This document shows positions 3,231 to 25,488 of a stretch of DNA of 64,000 bases, one piece after another. Origin of the DNA: an uncultured Bacteroidota bacterium (GTDB taxonomy: Bacteria > Bacteroidota > Bacteroidia > Chitinophagales > Chitinophagaceae); the NCBI GenBank assembly GCA_903851465.1, contig CAINOI010000033.1:1-64000 (forward strand), in the 5' to 3' direction. A program made the position numbers and the translations under genes. The notes under the pieces were generated by a model, which did no database searches, was not told the DNA's origin, and was given only the letters and a program-made list of their open reading frames with translations. Position 1 is the first letter of the stretch. Every line of letters starts with the position of its first letter.

Positions 3231-3854
3231 ATGGTAAAAAAATCCTTTTTATTGTTTCTACTTGTCTTTGCTACTTTAACAATTTCTTTCAGTCAAGAAA
3301 TAGATAAAGTAGTCAATAAACAAATTTACACTTCATATTATTCTTCCCAATTAAAAGTGCCTTTATATGTAGTTTATGAACTAAATAATGGAGGAGGAGA
3401 GGTGAGTAGAAAAGGTATGAGATTTATAGAAGAATCTTTTACTGCAAAAAATAAAGATTATAGTAAGAGTGGATACGATCGAGGACATTTAGTGAGTGCA
3501 GAAGATTTCGCATTTGATAAATACCTTGAAGAACTTACATTTAGTTATTTAAATGTATTTCCCCAACATCCTAAATTAAATAGAGGAAGCTGGAAAGCAT
3601 GGGAGCATAAAATTAGATTAGAAAGCAAAAGAAGTCCATTAAAAATATACGTAGGAGGAATTTATGGAACTAATAAAATAAAAAATAAAATTGCAATTCC
3701 TGATTATTGCTGGAAAGTAGTTTATAATAAAAATACTCAAAGAATAATGCATATTTTATTATTTAAAAATGATGCAACACAAGCGGTTATAAGAACGACA
3801 CTAGATGGGCTTAGAAGTAAATTAAATTATAATATAAATTTCTCTCCTAAATGA
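3231..3854 (+). CDS. Secreted DNA/RNA non-specific endonuclease (NUC family)
   Basis: A 207-residue protein with a clear signal peptide (KKSFLLFLLVFATLTISFSQ). The mature part carries the NUC/Endonuclease_NS signature: YDRGHL at residues 82-87 (catalytic His86), then LNVFPQHPKLNRGSWKAWE with Asn108, Gln112, Asn117 (Mg ligand in the family) and Glu125. This family cleaves DNA and RNA without sequence preference. The protein is somewhat shorter than typical Serratia-type members but has the whole core. The signal peptide puts it in the periplasm or outside. It follows the HEPN-type gene by three bases and its TGA overlaps the next ATG (ATGA). That linkage of an exported nuclease to a cytoplasmic HEPN protein is unusual. 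Confidence 0.9.
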   Translation: MVKKSFLLFLLVFATLTISFSQEIDKVVNKQIYTSYYSSQLKVPLYVVYELNNGGGEVSRKGMRFIEESFTAKNKDYSKSGYDRGHLVSAEDFAFDKYLEELTFSYLNVFPQHPKLNRGSWKAWEHKIRLESKRSPLKIYVGGIYGTNKIKNKIAIPDYCWKVVYNKNTQRIMHILLFKNDATQAVIRTTLDGLRSKLNYNINFSPK

Positions 3855-4417
3855 AAAAGATTCTATTTTTATTATTCGTCAGCTTTATTGTCCTAAAAGG
3901 TTTTTCGCAAGATTCAAGTTTAAAAATAAAAGACAATATATACATAAGAATTAACCCTTTGTCTCTAGCCTCAGAACCTGGAAAAATCCAAAATAGAATA
4001 TCTCAAAATATCGAAGTTGGTAAAACGTTTGGCCCACTTGATATTGGTGTTGCATTCGGAAGATTGAATACAACAAAAAATGACACATCAAAATTTGCTT
4101 TATTGAAACTAACATTTGATGCAGCACAAATAGGGATTTTCAGTAATGAATTTTCAATTGGCGCGGGAACCGTTTTTAAATCTTCAACACCATACATGTT
4201 CGACATTAGTTCTACCCTGCTTGCCCAAATTGGTCGTAAGACTGCCGTTGGTGTAGTAGTGGGTACCTCCGATTTTTCTGGACAGTACAATCAATTTACT
4301 AAAAATTACTATGGCATATTGATTCGATATGGATACTTAAGGAGTGAAAATGGAGATTTAATAAGCAGAATCACTTCTAGAAAATCTTTTAAATCAAAAC
4401 CAAGGCTCAAACGTTAA
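3851..4417 (+). CDS. Hypothetical exported beta-rich protein
   Basis: A 188-residue protein with an N-terminal signal peptide (KKILFLLFVSFIVLKGFSQ). The mature chain has alternating hydrophobic strands (IGVAFGRLN, LLKLTFDAAQIGIFSNEFSIGAGTVF, TAVGVVVGTSDFSG, YGILIRYGYL), as in small outer-membrane barrels or periplasmic beta-sandwich proteins. It ends in a basic tail, not in the aromatic residue usual for barrels. It is translationally coupled to the secreted nuclease through an ATGA overlap, so the two products probably work in the same compartment, perhaps as partner or inhibitor; that role is inference. No family is recognised. Confidence 0.65.
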   Translation: MKKILFLLFVSFIVLKGFSQDSSLKIKDNIYIRINPLSLASEPGKIQNRISQNIEVGKTFGPLDIGVAFGRLNTTKNDTSKFALLKLTFDAAQIGIFSNEFSIGAGTVFKSSTPYMFDISSTLLAQIGRKTAVGVVVGTSDFSGQYNQFTKNYYGILIRYGYLRSENGDLISRITSRKSFKSKPRLKR

Positions 4418-4446
4418 TATATCCATTTTTAAATAATGCACTGTAA

Positions 4447-4680
4447 TTATTGCTTTGACCTTCTTCTTGCCTCTTCGGCTTCTTTATAAATCCTAATCCA
4501 AGTTAAAGAGATATCAATAATTGCTAATAAAGGTCCTAGTACAATGACCATGACAATCTCTAAACCAGGTGCATAACCAATGACACCATCTAGGGATATA
4601 TTTTTAGAGCGTTTAAAGAGCTTGTACACACAGTAAATGGCCGATACCAACCAGATAGCAAAAAGAATATTCTTGTCCAT
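4447..4680 (-). CDS. Small two-helix membrane protein, hypothetical
   Basis: A 77-residue protein with two hydrophobic segments (about 5-20 LFAIWLVSAIYCVYKL and 40-62 GLEIVMVIVLGPLLAIIDISLTW) and a charged C-terminal tail (KEAEEARRRSK). It runs convergent to the five-gene run and is separated from it by about 30 bases. I do not recognise it. Likely an inner-membrane protein; no function is proposed. Confidence 0.55.
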   Translation of the reverse strand: MDKNILFAIWLVSAIYCVYKLFKRSKNISLDGVIGYAPGLEIVMVIVLGPLLAIIDISLTWIRIYKEAEEARRRSKQ

Positions 4681-4742
4681 AATTTTATTTTAGTGAATAT
4701 AATATATTTTGTTTTATTTGCAATACATCAATGATGCCTATC

Positions 4743-6035
4743 ATGAAAAAAAGTCTATTTTTTATTACCCTATTGCTTTTGGTCGTATCAAATAAATTAA
4801 TGGCACAGTGGCCTGCACCTTTCAATACTATTTTAACTAGTATCCAAGATAGCATTACTAAAAAAGTGCTAGCTAGTCCCAAAACATACAGGTATCAGCT
4901 TGTATATACACAAATTGATAGAGATCAAAAAGACATTCCTCATTTTACCAATCATACATTATACGCAGATGCAGACAGCTACTTTAATCCAGCTTCGATG
5001 GTTAAAATGCCCCTTGCATTTTTGGCGATGGAAAAATTACATGAATTGAATAATCCCGGTGTAAACAAATTCACCAGTATGCAATTTGATAGCAACTATC
5101 AAAGACAAGTAGCCATGTATGAAGATGCGAGTGCTCAAAATAAAAAACCATCTATCGCACATTTTATCAAGCGCGCATTTTTGATATCCGAAAATGATCC
5201 CTACAACAGACTGTATCAATTTATGGGTCAAGGTCCAACGAATCAACAACTTCTAGCAAAAGGATATAGCAGTACAAAGATCACCAGACAATTTATGGGC
5301 TATACTGAAGACCAAAATAGACATACCAATGGGATTAATTTTGTGGATGAAAAAGGATTGCCAATTTTAAAGCTAGCCCCACAATACAATAAAGACAGCT
5401 TTCAGTTTGGAGCCCCTATATTCATTGGTGATGCACATTGGAATAGTAGGGACGAAGTAGTGAATGCCCCTTTTGATTTTACTCGACACAATAATATTTC
5501 ATTAACTGATATGCAAAAAATGTTGCAGTCCGTTATTTTTCCAGCCTCGGTGCCAAAACAAAATAGATTCAATATCGCCGAATCGGATAGGTTATTCTTA
5601 TTACAGTATCTATCTCAGTATCCATCGGAAACCAATTATCCCAAGTACGACAGTGCGCATTTTTATGATAGCTATGTGAAATTCTTTTTTCAAGACAGTA
5701 CGCATGCCATGCCAAAGCATATCAGGGTTTTCAATAAAGTAGGATGGGCTTATGGTTTCTTAACGGATGTGTCTTATGTGTTGGACACCAAAAACAATAT
5801 TGACTATATGCTTTCCGCAACCGTCTATGTCAATAGTGATGGTGTTGTGAACGATTCAAAATATGATGAAGCAACAGTGGGATTTCCCTTTTTAAATCAA
5901 ATTGGAAAAGCTTTTTATCAATATGAATTACAAAGAGCTAGAAAGTTTAAGCCAATCTTAAAAAATCAGGTGAAGCAATACGAAAAACGCAATCCAAAAG
6001 ATACTAGGCCTAGCATTTTAAATGCCGACAACTAA
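4743..6035 (+). CDS. Serine hydrolase, class A beta-lactamase-like, exported
   Basis: Start chosen at the ATG giving MKKSLFFITLLLLVVSNKLMAQ, a good signal peptide; two in-frame ATGs lie up to 12 bases upstream. All three class A beta-lactamase landmarks are recognisable: SMVK (Ser-x-x-Lys) in NPASMVKMPLAF, SEND near ISENDPYNRLY (SxN), and KVG in FNKVGWAYGF (the KTG position). At about 430 residues it is much longer than a 290-residue beta-lactamase, so it may be a peptidoglycan- or ester-cleaving hydrolase and not a resistance enzyme. Similar long proteins are common in Bacteroidota. It runs convergent with the BNR-repeat gene downstream. Confidence 0.8.
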   Translation: MKKSLFFITLLLLVVSNKLMAQWPAPFNTILTSIQDSITKKVLASPKTYRYQLVYTQIDRDQKDIPHFTNHTLYADADSYFNPASMVKMPLAFLAMEKLHELNNPGVNKFTSMQFDSNYQRQVAMYEDASAQNKKPSIAHFIKRAFLISENDPYNRLYQFMGQGPTNQQLLAKGYSSTKITRQFMGYTEDQNRHTNGINFVDEKGLPILKLAPQYNKDSFQFGAPIFIGDAHWNSRDEVVNAPFDFTRHNNISLTDMQKMLQSVIFPASVPKQNRFNIAESDRLFLLQYLSQYPSETNYPKYDSAHFYDSYVKFFFQDSTHAMPKHIRVFNKVGWAYGFLTDVSYVLDTKNNIDYMLSATVYVNSDGVVNDSKYDEATVGFPFLNQIGKAFYQYELQRARKFKPILKNQVKQYEKRNPKDTRPSILNADN

Positions 6036-6089
6036 AATCTACTGGATTGCGTCTTATCCTACCACTTTATGATACCATCTCCTTAGGTG

Positions 6090-9000
6090 CTACCAAATAG
6101 CACCCATTCCTAAATCCCATAATTGCTTATTCAATGCAGGAATAGCCATATTTTTTAAGTTAAGCCCTCTTGCTTTTAATTTTTCCCATTCAGTTGTGTA
6201 TTCTTTCAGTAAATCTAAATTAGGTTGATTCACTTGAGGGATATCGCTTTCTGTTTGATTCATCATGAACATATAGTTCGCAGTAAATTTGTTAGGGAAG
6301 TTTTCTACATCATCATATGAAGTTGATTTTCTTTGAATCATGTCTTCGTCCCATGCTTTTAAATTTGCAATCAAGCTTGCTGCATTATCTTTTAAGCTTG
6401 CATATTGTGCACCACTATAGTTTGCATCTGACTTTAATTTTTTAACCAATGCCTCAATGTGCGTAGCATTGTCTTTTAATTGATTCACCATCTGATGCAT
6501 TTCTGTTACAGTACTTTCCATCAAACGCATCAAAGAATCATATTGCTGATATTCAATAGCTGTAGTCGTAAAATTTGGATTGGCTTCAATCACTGCTGTT
6601 GTGCTGCCAATCATTTTGCCTCCGGCCATCAAACGAATGGTATACTTACCCGGGATGGCTTTATGACCACTAAAACTACTTTCAATATAGACATTTGGAA
6701 TTGCAGTTGTCGTTGCATGGCGAAGGTTCCACACAAAACGATTCAATCCTTTATCCTTACTTAATGTTGGGTCTTTTCTTGGCGCACCATCATATCGTTT
6801 ATAGTTTTCGTCTGCTTTAGAACTAAAACGTCTTATTAATTTACCAGATGCATCATTGATTTCCATGCTAAGTTCAACACCTTCTTCCATCTTTGGTAAT
6901 TGATAATATAAGACCATGCCTGTTGCAGGGTTGACTCCAGATTTTGCTTTAGCACCTGTAAAATCCGCATCATTGTCATCCATTTCGCTGGACCCCATTA
7001 CTGTTAATGTTGCATCAGGGTTGTATATTTTTACATTACTTGAGTCAGCCTTATATTGACGAATTAAATTTAAATCATCTAATATCCAAAAGGCTCTACC
7101 AGAAGTAGATGCAATTAAATTATTTTGGTGCACACGTAAATCGGTGATAGGTGCGATAGGTAAATTTAATTGGAATGGACTCCAGTTTTTACCACCATTA
7201 TTAGACATATATACGCCTAATTCTGTACCTGCAAATAATAAGTCTTTAATGACATTGTCCTCACGAACGACTCTTGTAAATGCATTGTTTGCAATGCCTG
7301 TATTGATTTTAGTCCAAGTGGTGCCGTAATCTGTTGATTTATACAATCCAGGTGTATGATCATTGAATTTGTATCTAGTAGTTGCAATGTATACTGTTGC
7401 TTTATCGTGTGGTGATACTTCAATTGCATTGATTAAACATTCTGCCAAACCAGTTGGTGTAATATTTTTCCAATTGGCGCCACCATCTTTTGTTAAGTAT
7501 ACATAACCGTCATCACTACCTGTATAGATCACACCTTTTTCATGAACCGATTCCATCACATACGCTAGCGTACCATAATTTTCTGCACCCACTGCCTCGT
7601 TTGTATATGGAACACCAGGTTTTCCTTGTTTAGATTTTTCGTTGCGCGTTAAATCAGGAGAAACTTCCTTCCATGTTTTTCCCATGTCCGAAGTTTTCAA
7701 TAAATACTGTGATCCGTGATAATAGGTATTTGGTTCATGCTTACTCCAAATGATGGGCGCATTCCAGTTGTATCGATACTTAATATCTTTTGCATCTCTT
7801 CCTAAATATTGAATTGGCGCAGCCATAATATTGATACTACCTTTTGTTTTTGTATCTAAGACTTCGATGGTGCCTTGATATGATCCACCTAAAACATACC
7901 TTGGATTGTTTGGATCAAATGCTAAGAATGCACTTTCACCTCCCGCAGATGAAGACCAATTTCTTTCATCAATTCCTCCTGCACCAATTGCACGACTTGC
8001 AATTTTAACTGAAGTATTGTCTTGTTGACCAGCATAAATATTATAAGGCACTTCATTGTCAACATTGATTCTATAAAATTGTCCTGTAGGCATATTGTTT
8101 AAACTACTCCAAGATTTTCCGCCATCGTGTGTTATAGCAGCACCGCCATCATCTGCCATCACCATATTTTTACCATTGCTTGGATGAATCCATAAATCAT
8201 GGTAATCACCATGCGTGCGTGCAAAATCTGTAAAAGTTTTACCACCATCAATAGATTTTAATGAAGGGGCACTCATCACATACACTGTATTTTCATTTGT
8301 AGGATCTGGGAACAGTTCTATATAATACCATGCGCGCTGAATCAAGCGATGGCTCTTATTAACTTGTGACCAACTTGCACCTGCGTCATTAGACACATAT
8401 AACCCACCAGCATCTTTACTAAAATCACTTTCAATTAATGCATATACTTTTTCAGCATTCGCTCTTGACACAGCAATAGACATTTTACCCATTTCTTTTG
8501 GTAAACCATTTTCCATTTTTACCCAGTTGTTACCGCCGTCTGTTGATTTATACAATCCACTTCCTGGTCCGCCACTGATCACTTGCCATGGCAAACGACC
8601 ATGCTCCCACATTGCAGCATAAAGAATAGAAGGATTTTGCATGTCCATGGATAATTCTGCACAACCCGTTTTATCATCTACATACAATACTTTTTTCCAT
8701 GTTGTACCACCATCAACCGATTTGTAAATACCACGATCAGTTGACTTGCTATACAATGCACCTTGTGCTGCAACAAAAACAATATTTGGATTTTTTGGAT
8801 CAATCGCAATTCTTGAAATATGTTGTGTGGCATCTAATCCCATTTTTTTCCAAGTCTTTCCAGCGTCTGTACTTTTATATACACCATCTCCATGATGGGT
8901 CATTACACCTCTTACTGCGTGCTCACCCATACCTACATAAACAATATTAGCATCGCTTTCTGCAACAGCAACGGCACCAACAGAACCTGTTTTAAAATAG

Positions 9001-9242
9001 CCATCGGAAATATTGTTCCAACTGATTCCACTGTTTTCTGTTTTCCATAAACCACCCCCAGTGGTACCCATATAATACACATCTCTATTATTCATTACGC
9101 CAGTTGCCATATTGGACCTGCCTCCTCTAAATGGACCAATACTTCTCCATTTTAACGGAGCAAGTTCTTTGTTGATGTCCTGCGCAAAGCCCATTTGTGT
9201 AAATACTACTAAGCTTAGTAAAGCGATTATCTTTTTGATCAT
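6090..9242 (-). CDS. Exported Asp-box (BNR/sortilin-type) repeat protein
   Basis: A 1050-residue protein with a signal peptide ([19 protein letters not shown]). Its first 700 residues hold about ten Asp-box repeats of the form S-x-D-x-G-x-T-W: [64 protein letters not shown] and others. This predicts one or two large beta-propellers as in VPS10/sortilin-like and sialidase-type proteins. The C-terminal 300 residues are different, with a beta-sandwich-like part and then a helical tail. Such proteins are often annotated 'glycosyl hydrolase', but I see no catalytic signature, so binding or scaffolding is as likely. A terminator separates it from the upstream gene on the same strand. Confidence 0.85.
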
Positions 9243-9271
9243 AAAATTGTTTTAGATGCAATAAATTTAAG

Positions 9272-9301
9272 CAAAAAAAAGACCCATTGTGCAATGGGTC
9301 T
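9272..9301 (-). terminator. Rho-independent terminator
   Basis: A perfect 10-bp stem AGACCCATTG/CAATGGGTCT (9280-9301) with a two-base centre. On the minus strand it is followed by eight Ts. It sits between the DUF6526 gene and the Asp-box gene, so the latter should have its own promoter. Confidence 0.85.
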
Positions 9302-9326
9302 AAATAACTTTTATAGATGCTGAAAA

Positions 9327-9755
9327 TTATACGCGGTAAAAATCTGCTTTCCAATTTTGAATGGATTGTTTGATCTCTTTTCCTGATAAATTATTTGCTG
9401 CTGCTTTTTCTGCTAGTGCTGGGAATTCAGCATCTGGCGCAAAACGCAATGCAACTACTTGACCTACGGTTAAACTAGCTGGAAGTAATTTTCCTGTTAA
9501 TACAAAATGGCGTAAATTTTCTTCTGCACGGATGGCTCTATCTTGTGCCTTTAAAGCAAATGTTCTTGCAAAAGCAAAAAGCATCACCAATATAAAGCTG
9601 GTTAAAACCAATAAAAAGGCAAGGTATTTATTTTCAGGACTTGCTTTTAATGCATAGTTGATTGACCCTCCAATAAGCGCAAGGATGGCAGGTGCAGTTA
9701 CATAGTGATACCCTGGAACCATTTGTGCGTGATTGCTAAAATTTTGTTCTTTCAT
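9327..9755 (-). CDS. DUF6526 family membrane protein
   Basis: A 142-residue protein opening with KEQNFSNHAQMVPGYHYVTAP, the typical start of DUF6526 proteins, followed by two membrane helices (about 24-40 and 44-64) and a soluble helical C-terminal half with AQDRAIRAEENLRHF. The function of the family is unknown. It is monocistronic here: the upstream region is a long intergenic gap and a terminator follows. Confidence 0.8.
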   Translation of the reverse strand: MKEQNFSNHAQMVPGYHYVTAPAILALIGGSINYALKASPENKYLAFLLVLTSFILVMLFAFARTFALKAQDRAIRAEENLRHFVLTGKLLPASLTVGQVVALRFAPDAEFPALAEKAAANNLSGKEIKQSIQNWKADFYRV

Positions 9756-9890
9756 ATTGTATATTTTGTGGCAGCAAGATAATTACTTTGTTTAGTTATA
9801 GAATTATGAATTTTCAGTATGCATCCGACTTACACCTAGAATGTACCCAAAATAAAAATTTCCCACCCTGTACCTAATTTTTTGAATTAT

Positions 9891-9971
9891 CCCAAAAAAC
9901 ACCAAAATGACCCAATAAATGCCTGTTTTACCTCAAATTTGGACGATTTTACCCAAAAAACACCCAAAATG
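9891..9971. repeat. Imperfect direct repeat, two 19/20-base copies
   Basis: CCCAAAAAACACCAAAATG at 9891-9909 recurs as CCCAAAAAACACCCAAAATG at 9952-9971, with starts 61 bases apart. The copies differ by one inserted C. A weaker related string (TACCCAAAATAAAAA) starts near 9844. It could be a regulator-binding array for the SusC operon or a simple slippage product. Confidence 0.6.
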
Positions 9972-10200
9972 CTTCAATTTTTGAACCCCATCATGCTCCT
10001 ATTTCCTCCTTTTTCAAAGGAAAAACAACCCTTTATACGCACCAATAAGGCTATGTAAAATCTAAGGAAGGAACAGGATTTGATTGAAACGCATTCATTA
10101 AGGTATACATGGTTTTCTTTTAACGCTATCCTTTGGTTTCCAAGGAATTAAAATTCTATAAATTTTTCATGTAATATTTTCTATTTGGATACTAATAAGC

Positions 10201-10217
10201 GTTAACTTAACGTTAAC
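10201..10217. promoter_or_regulatory. GTTAAC-type palindromic element upstream of SusC
   Basis: GTTAACTTAACGTTAAC is two GTTAAC palindromes flanking a third half-copy, 45 bases before the SusC start codon. Its symmetry and position suit an operator. No protein can be named as the binder. Confidence 0.35.
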
Positions 10218-10261
10218 AAAAGGGTCATACCTGAGTTTATTATTCACCAAAGTTTTAATTT

Positions 10262-13200
10262 ATGCAAACCAAAGGTTTATGGAGTTTGTTGTTGGTACTT
10301 TTTGCAAGTATTTCAATAGCAAACGCACAACAAAAATTGGTAACTGGTAAGGTTGTCGGATACGACAAGTCACCATTGTCCAATGTTTCTGTCCTTGTAA
10401 AAGGAACAAGAGTAGCAACAAGTACCGATAATGCGGGTGCTTTTTCTATCTCTGTAGCAAACAATCAAGTATTAACTTTCTCATCTGTAGGATTTGAGTC
10501 CAAAGATGTTAGAGTGGGCAACGCTAGTTCGATTGAAGTACGTCTTGCTTTAAAAGACAATACTTTAGAGGAAGTAGTTGTTACTGCAATGGACATCAAG
10601 CGTAATCCTAAAGAATTAGGTTACTCTGTACAAAAAGTAAAAGGTAGTGAACTTGCCGAAACACAACGTAACAACTTTGTAAACGGATTACAAGGACGTA
10701 TCGCTGGTTTAACAATCAATCCTACAAGTGGATTGGCTGGAGCAAGTTCTCAAATTGTATTAAGAGGTTTTAACTCTTTGTCTTTAGACAACTCTCCTTT
10801 ATTCATTATTGATGGTGTGATCATAGACAACTCAACAGTAAATGAAAATAATAGAAACACTGGATTGGCTGTAAAACCAACAAGTGCCAACGTATCATCT
10901 GAAAATAGATCTAACGACTATACCAATCGTATTGCCGATTTGAATCCAAATGATATTGAAAATGTAACGGTGTTAAAAGGTCCAGAAGCAACTGCACTCT
11001 ATGGTAGCCAAGCAAGTTCTGGAGCAATCGTAATCACCACTAAAAAAGGTGGCGATAGTGAAGGTAAAATAAAAGTAAGCTATGACAATAGCCTTAGATT
11101 ATCTACTTATACTAGGTATCCAGAAATCATGACAGATTATGATTCTGGTAACAATGGTGTTGCACAAAATATCTTCTCTTATTTTGGCCCTCAATTGCCT
11201 TATCCAACAAAAGGAGATAAGAACGCTGCGCGTTATCAGAACTTAGAAAACTTTTTTCAAACTAGTTTTTCTAACACACACAATGTGTCTGCAGAATATG
11301 GTAAAGGAAATCATTCAGTACGTATGTCAGGTTCTTACTTAGATGAAAATTCTCCTGTACGTACCAATAATTTTAGAAAATACAATTTCAGAATTGTAAC
11401 AAATCATAAAATTGGTAAAAATTTAGAAATTTCTCCAAGCATAAGTTATATCAAGAGCTCTAACGATAAGCCATTAAGAGGTGTGAAAGGATATGTATTA
11501 AGCTTATTATCTTGGCCTGTTGATAACGATGCAAAAGATTGGATCAATGCAAATGGTACTAAGAAAGGTTTATTTGCTGGCGATCCTAATGCTGAATTAG
11601 ACAATCCTTACTTTAACTTATACAAAAACAGAAGCCGCGACGAAGTATCAAGAACTGTAGCAACAATTTCTGTTAACTATTCTCCAACAAAATGGTTGAC
11701 TATTAATGGAAGAGCTGGTTATGATACTTACCAACAAGATGGTTATACAAAGTGGGATTCTGCATCTAACTTCTTAAGCCGTGCACAAAAAGGTGCTTTA
11801 GAAAATTACTATCGTAATTATTATGGGTACAACCATACAGTAACTGCGACAGCTAAGAAAAGCTTTGGAAAAGTAAACACAAGATTGATGATAGGTAATA
11901 TGTGGCAGGATTATGAAACACAAACCACTTCAATTTTTGGTAACAACTTAACAGACGCCAACAGAACAGATAGTGGTAATACTGCAGTTGCTTCAAGAAT
12001 TCGTAATAGCAATATGAACCGTTTTGGTTTACCAAACTACAATATCAATCGTCAAGCAGCTTATTTTGGTGAAGCAGCTGTGAACTATGATAATAAAGTG
12101 TTCTTAACTTATTCTCACCGTTTCGAAGAGTCTTCTATCTTCCCTACTGCCAGCAGAGCATATGATTATCCAGCAGGAAGCGTGAGTGTGATTATGTCAG
12201 ACATCTTCCCAGTTGTGAAGCAAGTGGCTAGCTATTGGAAGTTGAGAGGATCATTGGCGAGCACTGCTCGTTCTAGTGCGCCTTATGCGAACCAATCTAT
12301 CTTAAACTTTAACACTGGAAGTGGTGGTGGATACTATTATGATTTCACGAATGCAAATCCTTACTTAACGCCAGAGCGTCAAAAGACAATGGAAGTTGGT
12401 TCGGAGATGAAGTTTTTAAATGGCAGATTAAGTACAGAAGCAACTTATTATAAAACCGTAAACACAGACTTGATCGCTGAGAACTTTAGAGCGAGTTATG
12501 GTACTGGTTTTGTATTGAATACTTTGAACGTAGGTTCAAATGAGAATACAGGTCTTGAAGTTGTGTTAGACTACTTAGTAGTGAATAAAAAGAATTTTTC
12601 TTGGAACACACGTTTCAACTTTAATAGAATGCGTAACAAGGTAACTTCTTTACCTCCTAACGTTCCTGAATTCTACATTTCTGATACTTGGGTTTATGGT
12701 AATGCTAGAGGTGGTTTGGCAAATGGCGGACCAACAACTACAATTACTTCTCATGGTTATTTAAGAAACGATGCTGGTCAAATTTTAATTAGCCCAACCA
12801 CTGGATTACCATTGATTGATGCCAACTTTAAAGTTAGAGGAGATCGTAACCCAGACTTTACTTTAGGCTGGTTAAATAATATCACTTACAAAAATTTAAG
12901 AATCTCTTTCTTATGGGATGTTAAAGTTGGCGGTGATATCTTTAATGCGACCGAAAAATACTTAACTGCTATTGGTAGAAGCGCAATTACTAAAGACAGA
13001 GATATTGCAAGAGTGGTGCCAGGTGTTTTAAAAGACGGAAAAGAGAATACAACTTCTCCAACTCAAAACAATATTTTGCTAACTCCGGCAGCAAATTCTT
13101 TGTACTATTCTACAATGCCAGAAGAAGCATTTATCGAAAAAGATGTGAACTGGTTTAGATTAAGAGATCTTACTTTTAACTATAACGTAAAGAAATTGTT

Positions 13201-21248: not shown

Positions 21249-21941
21249 ATGAACTATCGTCACAAAGCCTTTATTAAGTTTGCATGTATTGTATGTATAA
21301 CATTTTGTATAAGTCAATCTTATTCAAAACTACATGCGCAGCCCTTTAAACAAGAGATCCTTCAATTTCAAAAATCAGATAGTATTGTCATGCCTCCCAA
21401 GGGGCAAATTGTATTTGCCGGAAGCTCTTCGTTTACAAAGTGGAAAGATGTGGCAATGTATTTTCCGGGTTATCCCATTATCAATAGAGGATTTGGTGGC
21501 GCTACCTTAGTGGATTTAATTTATTTCATAGACGAGGCTATTCTCAAGTATCAGCCTAGTCAAGTTTTTATTTATTGTGGAGAAAATGACATAGCCGATG
21601 TAGATACGGTTAGCCCTGCTACTGTATTACAAAGATTTAAAACCCTGCATACAATTTTATTAAAAAAATTACCAAAGACTACAAAAGTAGTTTTCGTTTC
21701 TTTAAAACCAAGTGTTGCTAGATGGCATTTAGAATCAAAATTTATAGAAACAAATAAATTGATTGAAGGATATATTGCCACACAAAAAAATATACAATAT
21801 TTGGATGTACATACTGCAATGCTGGATGAAAATAAAGAAGTGCTTAAAGATATCTTTATATCGGATAAATTGCACATGAATCCCAAAGGCTATTTGATAT
21901 GGCAAAAGCAATTTGTACCATATTTAACAATACCAAAATAG
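21249..21941 (+). CDS. SGNH/GDSL hydrolase, exported
   Basis: A 230-residue protein with an N-terminal hydrophobic export signal (FACIVCITFCISQSYSKLHAQ). All SGNH blocks are visible: block I FAGSSSF (Ser nucleophile), block II INRGFGGATL, block III IYCGENDIAD, and block V DKLHMNPKGY with the Asp/His pair. It should hydrolyse ester or acetyl groups on sugars or lipids in the periplasm. It starts nine bases after the AAA+ gene and may be its operon partner. It runs convergent with the blh gene, with only 22 bases between the stops. Confidence 0.88.
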   Translation: MNYRHKAFIKFACIVCITFCISQSYSKLHAQPFKQEILQFQKSDSIVMPPKGQIVFAGSSSFTKWKDVAMYFPGYPIINRGFGGATLVDLIYFIDEAILKYQPSQVFIYCGENDIADVDTVSPATVLQRFKTLHTILLKKLPKTTKVVFVSLKPSVARWHLESKFIETNKLIEGYIATQKNIQYLDVHTAMLDENKEVLKDIFISDKLHMNPKGYLIWQKQFVPYLTIPK

Positions 21942-21963
21942 TTGAATTGAATCTCAGATTAAA

Positions 21964-22884
21964 CTATTTAGTTTTATCCAATTTGATTTTAGTAAACACC
22001 TGTAAGTGAGGTAATGCAAGTACCGCAATGCCAATAAATAAAAGCGGTAAGACTTCTTTGATACTCCATGCCTCCATTGAAAAATAAATAAACACAATAA
22101 TGCCAGTCCATGCTACGACTGCATAGGGCACGGCTTTGGTGAGTAATTTTTTCCATCCAAGGAAACTGTTTTCCATTTCAAATTCTTGTCTTATTTTATC
22201 AAAAGACAAAATAGAATGCCATAGCCCAAAATAAAAACTAAAACACAACCATAGTGGCAATAGCATATTTAAAATCGTTAAACAGCCAATTTGCATCACT
22301 GCAAAAAAGAATTGCTTTGTGTCGGAGAAAAAATATTTATGTGAAAAGAATAAACTAATATGGATGCCTACAAGTGTTGCCTGAGAAATAGGCAATATGA
22401 TATTTGCATAATATATGTACTCATTTGCCTGCATCTTAGATTGTCCTAGTAAAACAAATACATCTATAGCTGTGTGAATATTTTTACTGAGTAGAAATAA
22501 AATCCAGCTAAGGCCTAAAACACTATAACAAAACTTATGTATCCCGGTATAGCTTTTACCTAACCAATCTATTTCGCCAAAATGGAAAGCGGTTAATCCA
22601 ATGAAAATGAGGATGGCGATTGTTGGTAAAAAATACCAAACCAATCCGTAGGCCAACATGTTTAGGATGTATTTTAATAAAAACAGATAACCATGTTTTT
22701 TATCAGCTCCTACATTGATTTTTTGATCTATATAAAAGTCTAATGCGCCGTGGGGGATACCTAATACAAATAAGGTAACAAATAAAACCCCTAATTGCTG
22801 GCTCGTTGACAATGGGAAATAGGCATGTAATAATGCTAAACCGAATCCAATGACCAAAAGTAGTTGTCTGAGCTTTATTTGCAT
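21964..22884 (-). CDS. blh: Beta-carotene 15,15'-dioxygenase, Brp/Blh family
   Basis: A 306-residue polytopic membrane protein with the Blh signatures GIPHGALDF (about 42-50), AFHFGEIDW (about 109-117) and LWHSILSFD, whose His residues hold the catalytic iron. It cleaves beta-carotene into two retinals, the chromophore of the rhodopsin encoded directly upstream on the same strand. A strong terminator lies between the two genes, and its T run ends about 10 bases before this start codon. Expression therefore depends on read-through or on a promoter inside the terminator region. No carotenoid-synthesis genes are in the window. Confidence 0.92.
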   Translation of the reverse strand: MQIKLRQLLLVIGFGLALLHAYFPLSTSQQLGVLFVTLFVLGIPHGALDFYIDQKINVGADKKHGYLFLLKYILNMLAYGLVWYFLPTIAILIFIGLTAFHFGEIDWLGKSYTGIHKFCYSVLGLSWILFLLSKNIHTAIDVFVLLGQSKMQANEYIYYANIILPISQATLVGIHISLFFSHKYFFSDTKQFFFAVMQIGCLTILNMLLPLWLCFSFYFGLWHSILSFDKIRQEFEMENSFLGWKKLLTKAVPYAVVAWTGIIVFIYFSMEAWSIKEVLPLLFIGIAVLALPHLQVFTKIKLDKTK

Positions 22885-22894
22885 ATAGTAGGCA

Positions 22895-22927
22895 TAAAAA
22901 AAGGGGCGAGTTATGCACTCGCCCCTT
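22895..22927 (-). terminator. Rho-independent terminator between rhodopsin and blh
   Basis: The 10-bp perfect stem AAGGGGCGAG/CTCGCCCCTT (22901-22927) has a 7-base loop and, on the minus strand, at least six Ts. It begins 15 bases after the rhodopsin stop codon and ends just before the blh ATG, so it should limit blh transcription relative to the rhodopsin. Confidence 0.9.
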
Positions 22928-22941
22928 AAAGATAGGATGAA

Positions 22942-23664
22942 TTAAGCAGCTTTTCTGCTCAATGCATATATAACAAGACCGAATCCGATTTTATTTACAG
23001 CATCACCGATGTTGTAAACAATATCCATATTCAAGCCAATATTTGCAAATCCTGCATACCATTGTCCATCAGCAGTTCCGATTAAATATCCTAGAGGATA
23101 GATAGCCCAACCTACTAAAATGAACCAACCTAATGCTTTGTTTGCAGATGCAACTGCAGTACCAGCACTTGTAGCTAATTTCTTAACATCGCCCATCCAT
23201 ACTTCATACACAATGTAGAAGTAAGCAAGCGCACTTACTGTACCCCAAACTGTAGCACTACCTAATCCAGCTTCACCCATGTAACCTGTTACCAACATTA
23301 CAACAGAAGCTAAGATCATTTTCCATAATAAACTTGTTGTACCACCAGCTTTTTTTGTGATCAAGTAGAACTCAACACACATCAAAGGCACAGTTAACAA
23401 CCAATCTACATAACGGAAGAAGGTTGGAGAATCATGCGTTTCAGCATAATAACTACGCATGTAGTAATAGTGAACAGCAGCGATAAAAGTGATCAAACCC
23501 GATACTAATACCGAAGTGCGCCACTCTTGACTTGTGTTGCTCAATTCAAAAAAGAAAAAAACCGAAGCGGCCATCATAGCCATTGTGCCTACAAAGAAAG
23601 TAAACGAAACATAGTCCGTTTTAGCAATCGTTGTCATAGCGTCTAATAAAAATAGAGAATCCAT
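22942..23664 (-). CDS. Light-driven proton pump, green-type proteorhodopsin
   Basis: A 240-residue seven-helix retinal protein. Helix C reads RYVDWLLTVPLMCVEF: Asp87 (proton acceptor), Thr91 and Glu98 (donor) make the DTE set of outward proton pumps. The colour-tuning position (GPR 105) is Met95, as in green-absorbing forms. His65 matches the GPR His75 partner of the acceptor. Helix G has Asp221 and the retinal Lys225 (DAVNK). Aligned by eye without gaps to green proteorhodopsin through GYMGEAG, Gly141 falls at GPR Phe152, the position whose Gly opens a carotenoid-antenna window in xanthorhodopsin-type pumps. About 255 AT-rich bases lie upstream, without a clear promoter box. Confidence 0.95.
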   Translation of the reverse strand: MDSLFLLDAMTTIAKTDYVSFTFFVGTMAMMAASVFFFFELSNTSQEWRTSVLVSGLITFIAAVHYYYMRSYYAETHDSPTFFRYVDWLLTVPLMCVEFYLITKKAGGTTSLLWKMILASVVMLVTGYMGEAGLGSATVWGTVSALAYFYIVYEVWMGDVKKLATSAGTAVASANKALGWFILVGWAIYPLGYLIGTADGQWYAGFANIGLNMDIVYNIGDAVNKIGFGLVIYALSRKAA

Positions 23665-23919
23665 ATTGTGGAGATTTGGTGAACGTGGTTATAACATATG
23701 TTAGTTAGAACATGAATTTAAATAAATTGTTTGAAAATTTAAAAAAAAATTTAAACAAAATCAGATTTTTTTTATCAATGTTGCATCATTGATCATTTAA
23801 AAAAACATACATAATCAATCAGTTAGGTTCATTTCTTATTTTTTTAATAACAATATTTTTTATTATCTATATAATTGATAGTCATTTATTTAAATACTAT
23901 TTTAACATTTTTAGCATTT

Positions 23920-25488
23920 TTACAGTGATTTTCGGATTGAAATACCCTTTTTTATAGGCAATTGTACTGCATTGTCCATGCTCAACACACCATTTACCCA
24001 GATGTATTTGAATCCTTTTGCATATTGATGGGAGTCTTCGAAAGTGGCCATGTCTGAAACCTCATCTGCATCAAATACAACGATGTCTGCATAATACCCT
24101 TCTTGTAAGATGCCTCTTTTTTCGATATTGAATTTACTTGCAGGTAAGGAGGTCATTCTCCTAATGGCTTCTTCTAAACTTAATACGGCCATTGTTCTCA
24201 CATATCTTCCTAGTACGCGTGAATTGGTGCCATATGCTCTAGGATGAGGTTTGCCATATCCCTTCATCGCGATGCCAGCATCACTTGCGAACATATTAAA
24301 AGGATATTGCATAATGGCTTTGACATCAGATTCAGTCATGCCATGGTAAATCATCTGCGCCCCACCTTGTTCCATCATTTGTATGATTGTTTCTGCTTCA
24401 TCTAATGCCTTGTTTTTATTGCCTCTTAATAGATTAATGGCTTCGATATCTTTTCCATTGTAATTGCTGTCTGCTTTGTAATTGGCGACTACGGCATAGG
24501 TAAAATGCTTGATTCCTCTTTCTTTTAATATACCAATGATTTCATTGGCTACTTTTTTTCGAATGGTTGGATTTTTTAATCTGGCAAAAATGGAGTCCTG
24601 TCCATCAGATAACACCCAGTCTGGCAACAAGACACTTAATTGGGTGCTACTAGCAGTATAAGGGTATTGGTCAATGGTCACATCTATGCCCTCTTTTCTT
24701 GCATTCACAACCAATGGAATTGTTTCATTACTTCGGCCCCAATTGTTTTGACCGCTAATTTTAAAATGCGAAATCTCAACTGGTATGGTAGCCGCCCTTC
24801 CAATTTGGATGGCTTCGTTTACCGCATCCACTACTTGATTTTCTTCGTTTCTAATATGAGATGCATAGACGCCTCCATTAGCAGCAACAACTTTAGCAAG
24901 TCTTACAATTTCTTCTGTAGGCGCATATGTGCCTGGGATATAAATTAAACCAGTGGACATTCCTACTGCACCATCTTGCATCGCTTGTGCTGCTATTTTT
25001 TCCATTGCCTGCATTTCGGCTTCTGTAGCATGTCTGTTTGCTGTGCCCATCACCTGCTTACGAATGGTATTGTGCCCAATTAGAGATGCAATATTAATGG
25101 ACATGCCAATGGAGTCTAGTTGATTAAAATAGGCATTTAAATTATCAGCTGATCCGCCACAATTCCCTGTTACCACAGTGGTTACACCGTCGTATAAAAA
25201 ATTACTTGCCAATGGATTTCTGAATTCGCCACCTTCTAAATGCCCGTGTACATCAATAAACCCCGGCGCAACAATCATACCTTTGGCATCCACTTCTTTG
25301 GTTGCTTTCCAATTTTTTAAATTGCCTATAGCAATAATTCGGTTGCCTTTAATAGCTAGATCTTTATATTGCCATTGATTCCCTGTACCATCAATTAGTT
25401 TCCCGTTACGAATAATATAATCTGCAGTTTGTGCTTTTGTTTGCAGCAAAGTAAAAACGAAGGCAAAGAGTAGGAGGCTATTTTTCAT
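23920..25488 (-). CDS. N-acyl-D-amino-acid deacylase (D-aminoacylase family), exported
   Basis: A 522-residue amidohydrolase with a signal peptide (NSLLLFAFVFTLLQTKAQ). The N-terminal beta domain (YIIRNGKLIDGTG) is followed by metal-site motif GFIDVHGHLE, then VVTGNCGGS, SLIGHNTIRK, YASHIRNEE, EISHFKISG and the late Asp in MFASDAGIA, all typical of D-aminoacylases. It frees D-amino acids from N-acyl forms, for example from cell-wall turnover. It stands alone in a block of peptide-salvage genes and is divergent from the gamma-glutamyltransferase. Confidence 0.9.
   Translation of the reverse strand: MKNSLLLFAFVFTLLQTKAQTADYIIRNGKLIDGTGNQWQYKDLAIKGNRIIAIGNLKNWKATKEVDAKGMIVAPGFIDVHGHLEGGEFRNPLASNFLYDGVTTVVTGNCGGSADNLNAYFNQLDSIGMSINIASLIGHNTIRKQVMGTANRHATEAEMQAMEKIAAQAMQDGAVGMSTGLIYIPGTYAPTEEIVRLAKVVAANGGVYASHIRNEENQVVDAVNEAIQIGRAATIPVEISHFKISGQNNWGRSNETIPLVVNARKEGIDVTIDQYPYTASSTQLSVLLPDWVLSDGQDSIFARLKNPTIRKKVANEIIGILKERGIKHFTYAVVANYKADSNYNGKDIEAINLLRGNKNKALDEAETIIQMMEQGGAQMIYHGMTESDVKAIMQYPFNMFASDAGIAMKGYGKPHPRAYGTNSRVLGRYVRTMAVLSLEEAIRRMTSLPASKFNIEKRGILQEGYYADIVVFDADEVSDMATFEDSHQYAKGFKYIWVNGVLSMDNAVQLPIKKGISIRKSL

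Follow-up and report, generated by a model that had tools for sequence, protein, structure and literature searches.

A Chitinophagaceae-type proteorhodopsin with a likely hydroxylated-carotenoid antenna and an inverted repeat shared with the host carotenoid operon

A 64,000-nucleotide stretch of a Bacteroidota contig (hereafter the window) encodes a rhodopsin with a glycine at the position that, in xanthorhodopsin-type pumps, opens the retinal ring to a bound carotenoid. This raises the question of whether the protein harvests light through a carotenoid antenna, and of whether its host would make a suitable carotenoid and produce it together with the pump.

The rhodopsin and its window glycine

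We found that the rhodopsin (P0001, 240 amino acids) is encoded on the minus strand at positions 22942-23664, where the plus-strand frame is riddled with stops. In a Pfam profile search it matches PF01036 (E 4.4e-40), and it is the sole match to this family in its genome (1.91 Mb, 91.5% complete). When aligned with six PDB chains (NM-R1, GPR, XR, Kin4B8, TR and GR), the protein displays the DTE triad as D87/T91/E98, the Schiff-base lysine as K225 and a methionine, M95, at the tuning site, which confirms the first-pass annotation of a DTE proton pump with Met at that site. The family match, the lysine and the triad assign it to the bacterial type-1 rhodopsins as a DTE outward proton pump, and profile, alignment and fold place it in the proteorhodopsin family. 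That the pump is a green one is predicted from the tuning-site methionine. The relatives at 85-96% identity are metagenome-assembled genomes titled Chitinophagaceae bacterium, Bacteroidetes bacterium, Chitinophaga pinensis and Sediminibacterium sp., with one titled Comamonas, and the isolate names indicate that the host is probably a freshwater organism. Two loci with discordant titles, L045 (85% identity, Comamonas) and L097 (69%, Chlorobiota), may reflect either mislabelled bins or transfer, and a contig of a viral collection (L211), the lone relative from the viral scan, encodes a rhodopsin 59% identical to P0001.

We examined the position of the glycine in the six-chain alignment, in which G141 falls on G156 of XR, G153 of Kin4B8, G178 of GR, G152 of TR, G142 of NM-R1 and residue 136 of the GPR chain. 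We take the GPR chain numbering to be offset by 16, which turns its D81, E92 and K215 into D97, E108 and K231 and its residue 136 into F152. Alignment and numbering agree in placing Gly141 at the GPR Phe152 site, where it had been put by eye, and the gap-free pairing behind that placement was recovered by HMMER, whose alignment has no gap across this segment. The bulky neighbour Trp140, which had been named as a residue that might occupy the antenna site instead (the V139-W140-G141 codons lie at 23242-23250, minus strand), aligns on the Trp preceding the window Gly in XR, Kin4B8, GR, TR and NM-R1. It is thereby ruled out as the residue at that site, the Trp-Gly pair being shared with carotenoid-binding rhodopsins. 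In the six-chain mapping, the four pocket residues of Kin4B8 (G153, Y204, S208 and Y209) all receive their published numbers, which provides a useful check on the alignment. In a MAFFT alignment of 68 rhodopsins the GPR row had slid, leaving a Pro at the column of the glycine, a slip that is absent from the HMMER and six-chain alignments. By its Gly at the position of XR Gly156 and Kin4B8 Gly153, the protein would belong with the carotenoid-fenestrated, antenna-capable rhodopsins. Among its relatives, each of the 141 rows that are not gapped at this position carries Gly (143 rows, 2 of them gapped, in a set that is not dereplicated and includes the own locus of the window), so that the residue is no accident of one sequence, and both it and T197 are invariant in a 58-row alignment (A1).

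To what extent does this glycine mark an antenna? We searched 395 Bacteroidota genomes, 61 of which have a PF01036 match, and compared 68 rhodopsins, leaving out that of the window itself and one below the cut-off. We observe Gly at this position in 61 of the 68, comprising all 42 DTE pumps, all 17 NDQ-motif proteins, one DTK and one DTQ, and the 7 rhodopsins that lack it are of the TSA, DTA and DTY types. Its use as a rare antenna marker is thus ruled out, and as Gly is the rule in sampled Bacteroidota pumps, Gly alone is weak evidence for an antenna. Its presence throughout the DTE and NDQ proteins would also be expected if the protein were a plain proteorhodopsin, with Gly141 as an inherited clade trait, no carotenoid bound in the cell and zeaxanthin serving only in photoprotection. 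The anchor position on helix F is variable. At the position of Thr197 (codon at 23074-23076, minus strand; that of Kin4B8 Ser208 in the six-chain alignment), the 42 DTE pumps have Thr in 13 cases, Phe in 9, Pro in 7, Met in 6, Leu in 3, Glu in 2 and Ser in 2, and the 23 of them with Met at the tuning site have Thr (13), Pro (7), Glu (2) or Ser (1). Several of these Met-type pumps (e.g. L189, L193, L203 and L224) have Pro or Glu here despite the window Gly, and their carotenoid preference, if any, may differ. Within the relatives, Thr197 and Tyr193 are both kept in 142 of 142 rows with a residue there (not dereplicated), which argues against a plain proteorhodopsin. As judged from sequence, the antenna case rests on Thr197 and on closeness to NM-R1 rather than on the glycine.

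The probable carotenoid pocket and the predicted pigments of the host

NM-R1, which we take to come from Nonlabens marinus, is the top sequence match of P0001 (E 4e-88), and its structure 9jou, a zeaxanthin-bound light-driven proton pump, is the top fold match (Z 30.9, rmsd 1.6 A over 227 residues, 62% identity). The NM-R1 letters aligned are those of 9jov, in which the printed stretch is identical to 9jou. The AlphaFold2 model of P0001 has a mean pLDDT of 85.5, and at residues 191-210, the anchor side included, the block means fall to 53 and 55. The two proteins share the DTE triad, the tuning Met, the Trp-Gly pair, the Tyr/Thr anchor and the fold; they differ in that NM-R1 has Pro after the TM6 Thr, where P0001 has Ala, and Met in place of Leu194, and the bound carotenoid is observed in NM-R1 only. 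The zeaxanthin in the structure of so close a pump, which shares the Trp-Gly and Thr of P0001, speaks against the plain proteorhodopsin, which we regard as distinctly unlikely.

Next, we compared the pocket residues at Kin4B8 positions 204, 205, 208 and 209, which in P0001 are Y193, L194, T197 and A198, and in NM-R1 are Y/M/T/P by the six-chain alignment. According to one study, the corresponding residues in two lutein/zeaxanthin-binding proteorhodopsins are Y/M/T/D (KR1) and Y/I/T/E (EINA29G6). In the same study, Kin4B8 with Ala in place of Ser208 retained 2% of wild-type zeaxanthin binding, and with Phe in place of Tyr209 its energy transfer fell to about 18%, from about 40% (PMC12308411). 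The 3-hydroxyxanthophyll-binding subgroup (Kin4B8, KR1, EINA29G6 and NM-R1) is characterised by Tyr204 and a small hydroxylated 208, which P0001 has as Y193 and T197, and by a polar 209 (Tyr, Asp or Glu), which it lacks, having Ala198. The replacement of Kin4B8 Tyr209 by Ala198 counts against a bound antenna that feeds the retinal; NM-R1 was nevertheless solved with zeaxanthin while carrying Pro at 209, so a polar residue there is no requirement. Compared at the residues tabulated in PMC12308411, KR1 (Dokdonia eikasta) and EINA29G6 belong like P0001 to the proteorhodopsin family and have Tyr at 204 and Thr at 208, but carry Asp or Glu at 209 instead of Ala. Kin4B8, a xanthorhodopsin with zeaxanthin (8i2z), shares the Gly window, Tyr204 and a small hydroxylated 208 (Ser, where P0001 has Thr), but is a member of the xanthorhodopsin family at 31% identity with Tyr209 in place of Ala. 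The Salinibacter ruber xanthorhodopsin (3ddl) and the Gloeobacter rhodopsin (6nwd) have the Trp-Gly window and are DTE pumps like P0001, but these ketocarotenoid binders have Met at the Thr197 position and 30-32% identity to it. The protein is probably a further, Chitinophagaceae-type case of the already known hydroxylated-carotenoid-binding proteorhodopsins.

We then examined the genes for retinal and carotenoids. The next gene on the same strand, starting 57 nt downstream of the rhodopsin, is blh (21964-22884, minus strand), which encodes a beta-carotene 15,15'-dioxygenase of the Brp/Blh type, the source of retinal from beta-carotene (PF15461, E 4.4e-34; TIGR03753, 133 bits against a cut-off of 95), and of 80 loci from relatives, 63 have it no farther than 400 nt from the rhodopsin. 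Folding energy and pair count identify a terminator-like hairpin between the rhodopsin stop and blh (22901-22927, minus strand), with 11 pairs (7 of them G-C), a loop of 5 and a T-run (-21.2 kcal/mol for the 61-nt stretch); a hairpin of this strength suggests that blh may be transcribed less than the rhodopsin or have a promoter to itself. Elsewhere in the genome, contig C13 (L116) carries on one strand a carH-like gene, an ECF sigma factor, crtI, crtB, crtZ and crtY, a gene set that would make the host a zeaxanthin producer. The products of crtB and crtY score above the Pfam cut-offs and below the NCBIfam ones. CrtZ, for which no Pfam or NCBIfam model matched, was assigned by its 40-43% identity to plasmid genes of Pantoea and others and by its position in the cluster, and among the 20 records listed one is annotated as beta-carotene hydroxylase. 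Two FA_hydroxylase matches (C3 and C32) were dropped as CrtZ candidates, their sole NCBIfam match being OlsE, below the cut-off. No carotenoid ketolase was recognised among the FA_desaturase matches of the genome; of two such matches considered as CrtW, one is DesA-like (Delta(5) desaturase) below the cut-off and the other has no NCBIfam match, leaving that assignment unsupported.

The end product of this pathway is likely zeaxanthin, as predicted from the gene set. CrtI scores best as a bifunctional CrtID (phytoene/3,4-desaturase), above the cut-off of that family (721 over 640 bits), so another end product is possible, and the antenna could be a 3,4-didehydro or otherwise modified carotenoid, or lutein taken from phytoplankton. 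We consider a bound antenna other than zeaxanthin unlikely, given that CruF (PF04240) was not found in the 91.5% complete genome and that crtZ and crtY share one cluster. Additionally, crtZ is present in 96 of 101 genomes of a genus sample, 62 of 63 with a rhodopsin and 34 of 38 without. Its co-occurrence with rhodopsin is therefore uninformative as antenna evidence, and its near-equal frequency in the rhodopsin-less genomes indicates other uses of the carotenoid and is in keeping with a purely photoprotective zeaxanthin, as a plain proteorhodopsin would have it.

Overall, the first-pass suggestion of a hydroxylated-carotenoid antenna gains support from the Trp-Gly pair, the zeaxanthin-bound NM-R1 structure, Thr197 and the crtI-crtB-crtZ-crtY genes, and such an antenna is likely for P0001, with binding as a prediction. 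The protein would bind retinal, pump protons outward and belong to the Bacteroidota clade of proteorhodopsins that includes NM-R1, KR1 and EINA29G6, with Gly141 on helix E leaving a gap next to the retinal ring. The antenna, a 3-hydroxylated carotenoid and in all likelihood zeaxanthin from the cell's own crtI-crtB-crtZ-crtY genes, would run along both helix E and helix F and place its hydroxylated ring in this gap, gripped by Thr197 and Tyr193, and would hand blue-light energy to the retinal, itself supplied from beta-carotene by the neighbouring Blh. We infer both the binding and the energy transfer from these residues and genes.

An inverted repeat before the pump and carotenoid genes

We investigated whether the pump and carotenoid genes share an upstream element. 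An exact inverted repeat, TTGTTTAA-N16-TTAAACAA, lies in the gap before the ECF-crtIBZY operon, beside the gene of a CarH/LitR-like regulator, and a copy with one mismatch to it, TTGTTTAA-N16-TCAAACAA, forms a predicted operator at 23727-23758 of the window, 62 bp upstream of the rhodopsin ATG. Counted over the 64-kb window alone, operator matches are no more frequent than chance would give (3 found against 3.02 expected, at up to 3 mismatches), and a sigma-70 scan of 21900-23950 gave no excess of promoter-like sites (9 against a shuffle mean of 10.4). A scan of the own genome for the N16 form gives a single exact match, that of the crt operon, and four with one mismatch: before the rhodopsin, just before PTPS-folE (L284), and two by DUF6717 and HAD genes that look unlinked. 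At up to 2 mismatches the genome has 15 sites, including a second crt site, as compared to 5 for the reversed control. A weaker repeat upstream of the own carH-like gene was left out of these counts.

When 114 dereplicated rhodopsin genes were examined, comprising relatives and the own one, the repeat was found within one mismatch upstream of 48, mostly those of relatives, at spacings of 18, 19, 28 and 29; at this stringency the other 66 lack it. Sixty dinucleotide-shuffle sets averaged 1.05, none of them exceeding 7, and the other controls gave 2 (reversed arms), 1 of 112 (downstream stretches) and 3 (wrong spacings); exact copies precede 19 of the 114 genes against a mean of 0.02. The spacings, which were picked after a first look and on largely the same loci as this count, cluster at 18-19 and 28-30, two groups that differ by roughly one turn of the helix. 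The phylum sample, nearly independent of that choice, has the repeat before 10 of the 23 DTE pumps of Met type, before none of the 19 of Leu type and before none of the 17 NDQ proteins, with 0 for the reversed pattern (spacing 30 also allowed), although rhodopsin class is confounded there with host lineage. Two of the 23 Met-type pumps had been included in the earlier set of loci and lack the repeat; without them the count is 10 of 21.

Furthermore, in the 101 genus genomes the exact pattern, in which 18 or 19 positions separate the 7-mers, occurs at 128 sites, as compared to 23 for the reversed control. Among 75 exact sites listed, 40 have a carH-like gene within 700 bp and 4 have a rhodopsin within 400 bp, and the other 31 lie elsewhere. 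We opened 30 site loci, naming genes by eye, and found the site-adjacent gene to be of ECF type in 15, a rhodopsin in 2, of PTPS type in 5, a conserved gene in 5, and another gene or nothing in 3. The repeat is near a PTPS-type gene in L251, L262, L270, L272 and L276, as it precedes PTPS-folE in the own genome, and through these sites the regulon may extend to pterin genes. Elsewhere in the genus, the repeat stands by a fasciclin-like gene (by eye) and a divergent conserved gene in L259, L261, L264 and L267, and by the divergent gene only in L263.

Repeat-bearing units that are separate in the own genome are contiguous in one relative. On a 422-kb metagenomic contig (L064), positions 3535-10650 carry on one strand PTPS, folE, rhodopsin, a carH-like gene, crtI, crtB, a small ORF, an idi-like gene and crtZ, and a single exact operator copy at 3535-3566 precedes the whole run; the carH-like gene and crtZ were named by phmmer with the own proteins and the other genes by eye. 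The rhodopsin of this contig has the same Trp-Gly and Thr as P0001, with no close copy of the repeat directly in front of it and no blh within the stretch examined. This clustering is the exception, as a rhodopsin lies near crtZ or carH in 1 of 80 relatives' loci, within the stretches examined.

A candidate light-responsive regulator

Upon examining the regulator encoded beside the crt operon (P0003, 292 amino acids), we found a MerR domain and a B12-binding domain, matched by PF13411 and PF02607 above the cut-off and by PF02310 below it. It contains GxxW, EH, GxxH and GxxxP motifs, at 136, 139-150, 184 and 209, which in the available part of PMC11796333 form the signature of light-responsive B12 proteins, and its Trp-to-EH distance equals that from W131 to E141-H142 of the Thermus protein described there. 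With a MerR domain, a B12-binding domain and the light signature, the protein would be a candidate AdoCbl photoreceptor of the CarH/LitR kind, and it resembles these regulators also in having its gene beside a carotenoid operon. It differs from them in scoring below the NCBIfam CarH equivalog cut-off (98.1 of 400 bits), for which reason we call it CarH/LitR-like rather than CarH proper, and in the DNA repeat that would be its site. A carH-like gene is present in 90 of the 101 genus-sample genomes.

We infer that this regulator binds the shared repeat and that the genes bearing it are under light control. In this clade, and probably for many proteorhodopsins of Bacteroidota, the pump, the zeaxanthin pathway and PTPS-folE would then form one CarH/LitR-like regulon, light-induced through TTGTTTAA-N16/17-TTAAACAA, a reading to which we give slightly better than even credence. 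The repeat could instead be the site of another regulator, or a promoter element without a light response, which we consider possible, if less than probable. In the portions of the sources available, the Thermus CarH operator consists of 11-bp direct repeats, nAnnTnnACAn (PMC8156234), and the PplR1 sites read T(G/A)TACA (PMC9758184), neither of which resembles TTGTTTA, and the low equivalog score of P0003 points in the same direction. So does Chryseobacterium lacus, a member of the same phylum in which zeaxanthin is light-induced and, in the text available, the authors found no car or lit genes (PMC7064467); other light regulators would thus exist in the phylum, and the mechanism proposed here need not be general. 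Against another regulator or promoter element stands the proximity of 40 of the 75 listed exact sites to a carH-like gene, and the spacings of 18/19 and 28-30, one helical turn apart, fit a protein site. Further sites precede PTPS genes, and folE belongs to the LitR-type light regulon of Pseudomonas (PMC9758184), which parallels the repeat-bearing PTPS-folE here.

Since the rhodopsin and the crt operon carry matching operators, pump and antenna are probably produced together, which under a B12-type light-responsive regulator of the CarH/LitR-like kind suggests that light switches on the pump and carotenoid genes jointly. We consider it likely that P0001 is a pump of the NM-R1, KR1 and EINA29G6 kind with a zeaxanthin-type antenna, probably co-produced with the crt genes under a CarH/LitR-like regulator. 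The open-licence literature searched, including the accessible parts of PMC7064467, PMC8156234, PMC9758184, PMC11796333 and PMC12627116, yielded no description of CarH/LitR control of a rhodopsin gene, a weak indication that such control is new.

These results widen the set of rhodopsins expected to carry a hydroxylated antenna by a Chitinophagaceae-type member with matching host carotenoid genes. They also indicate that in Bacteroidota the window Gly by itself is no predictor of an antenna and that the variable helix-F anchor is the better one. The shared operator outweighs the protein in importance, as it makes pump-antenna co-production and light sensing testable through a defined DNA site and a named regulator; if the proposed regulon is true, rhodopsin phototrophy would gain a defined light switch common to the antenna genes.
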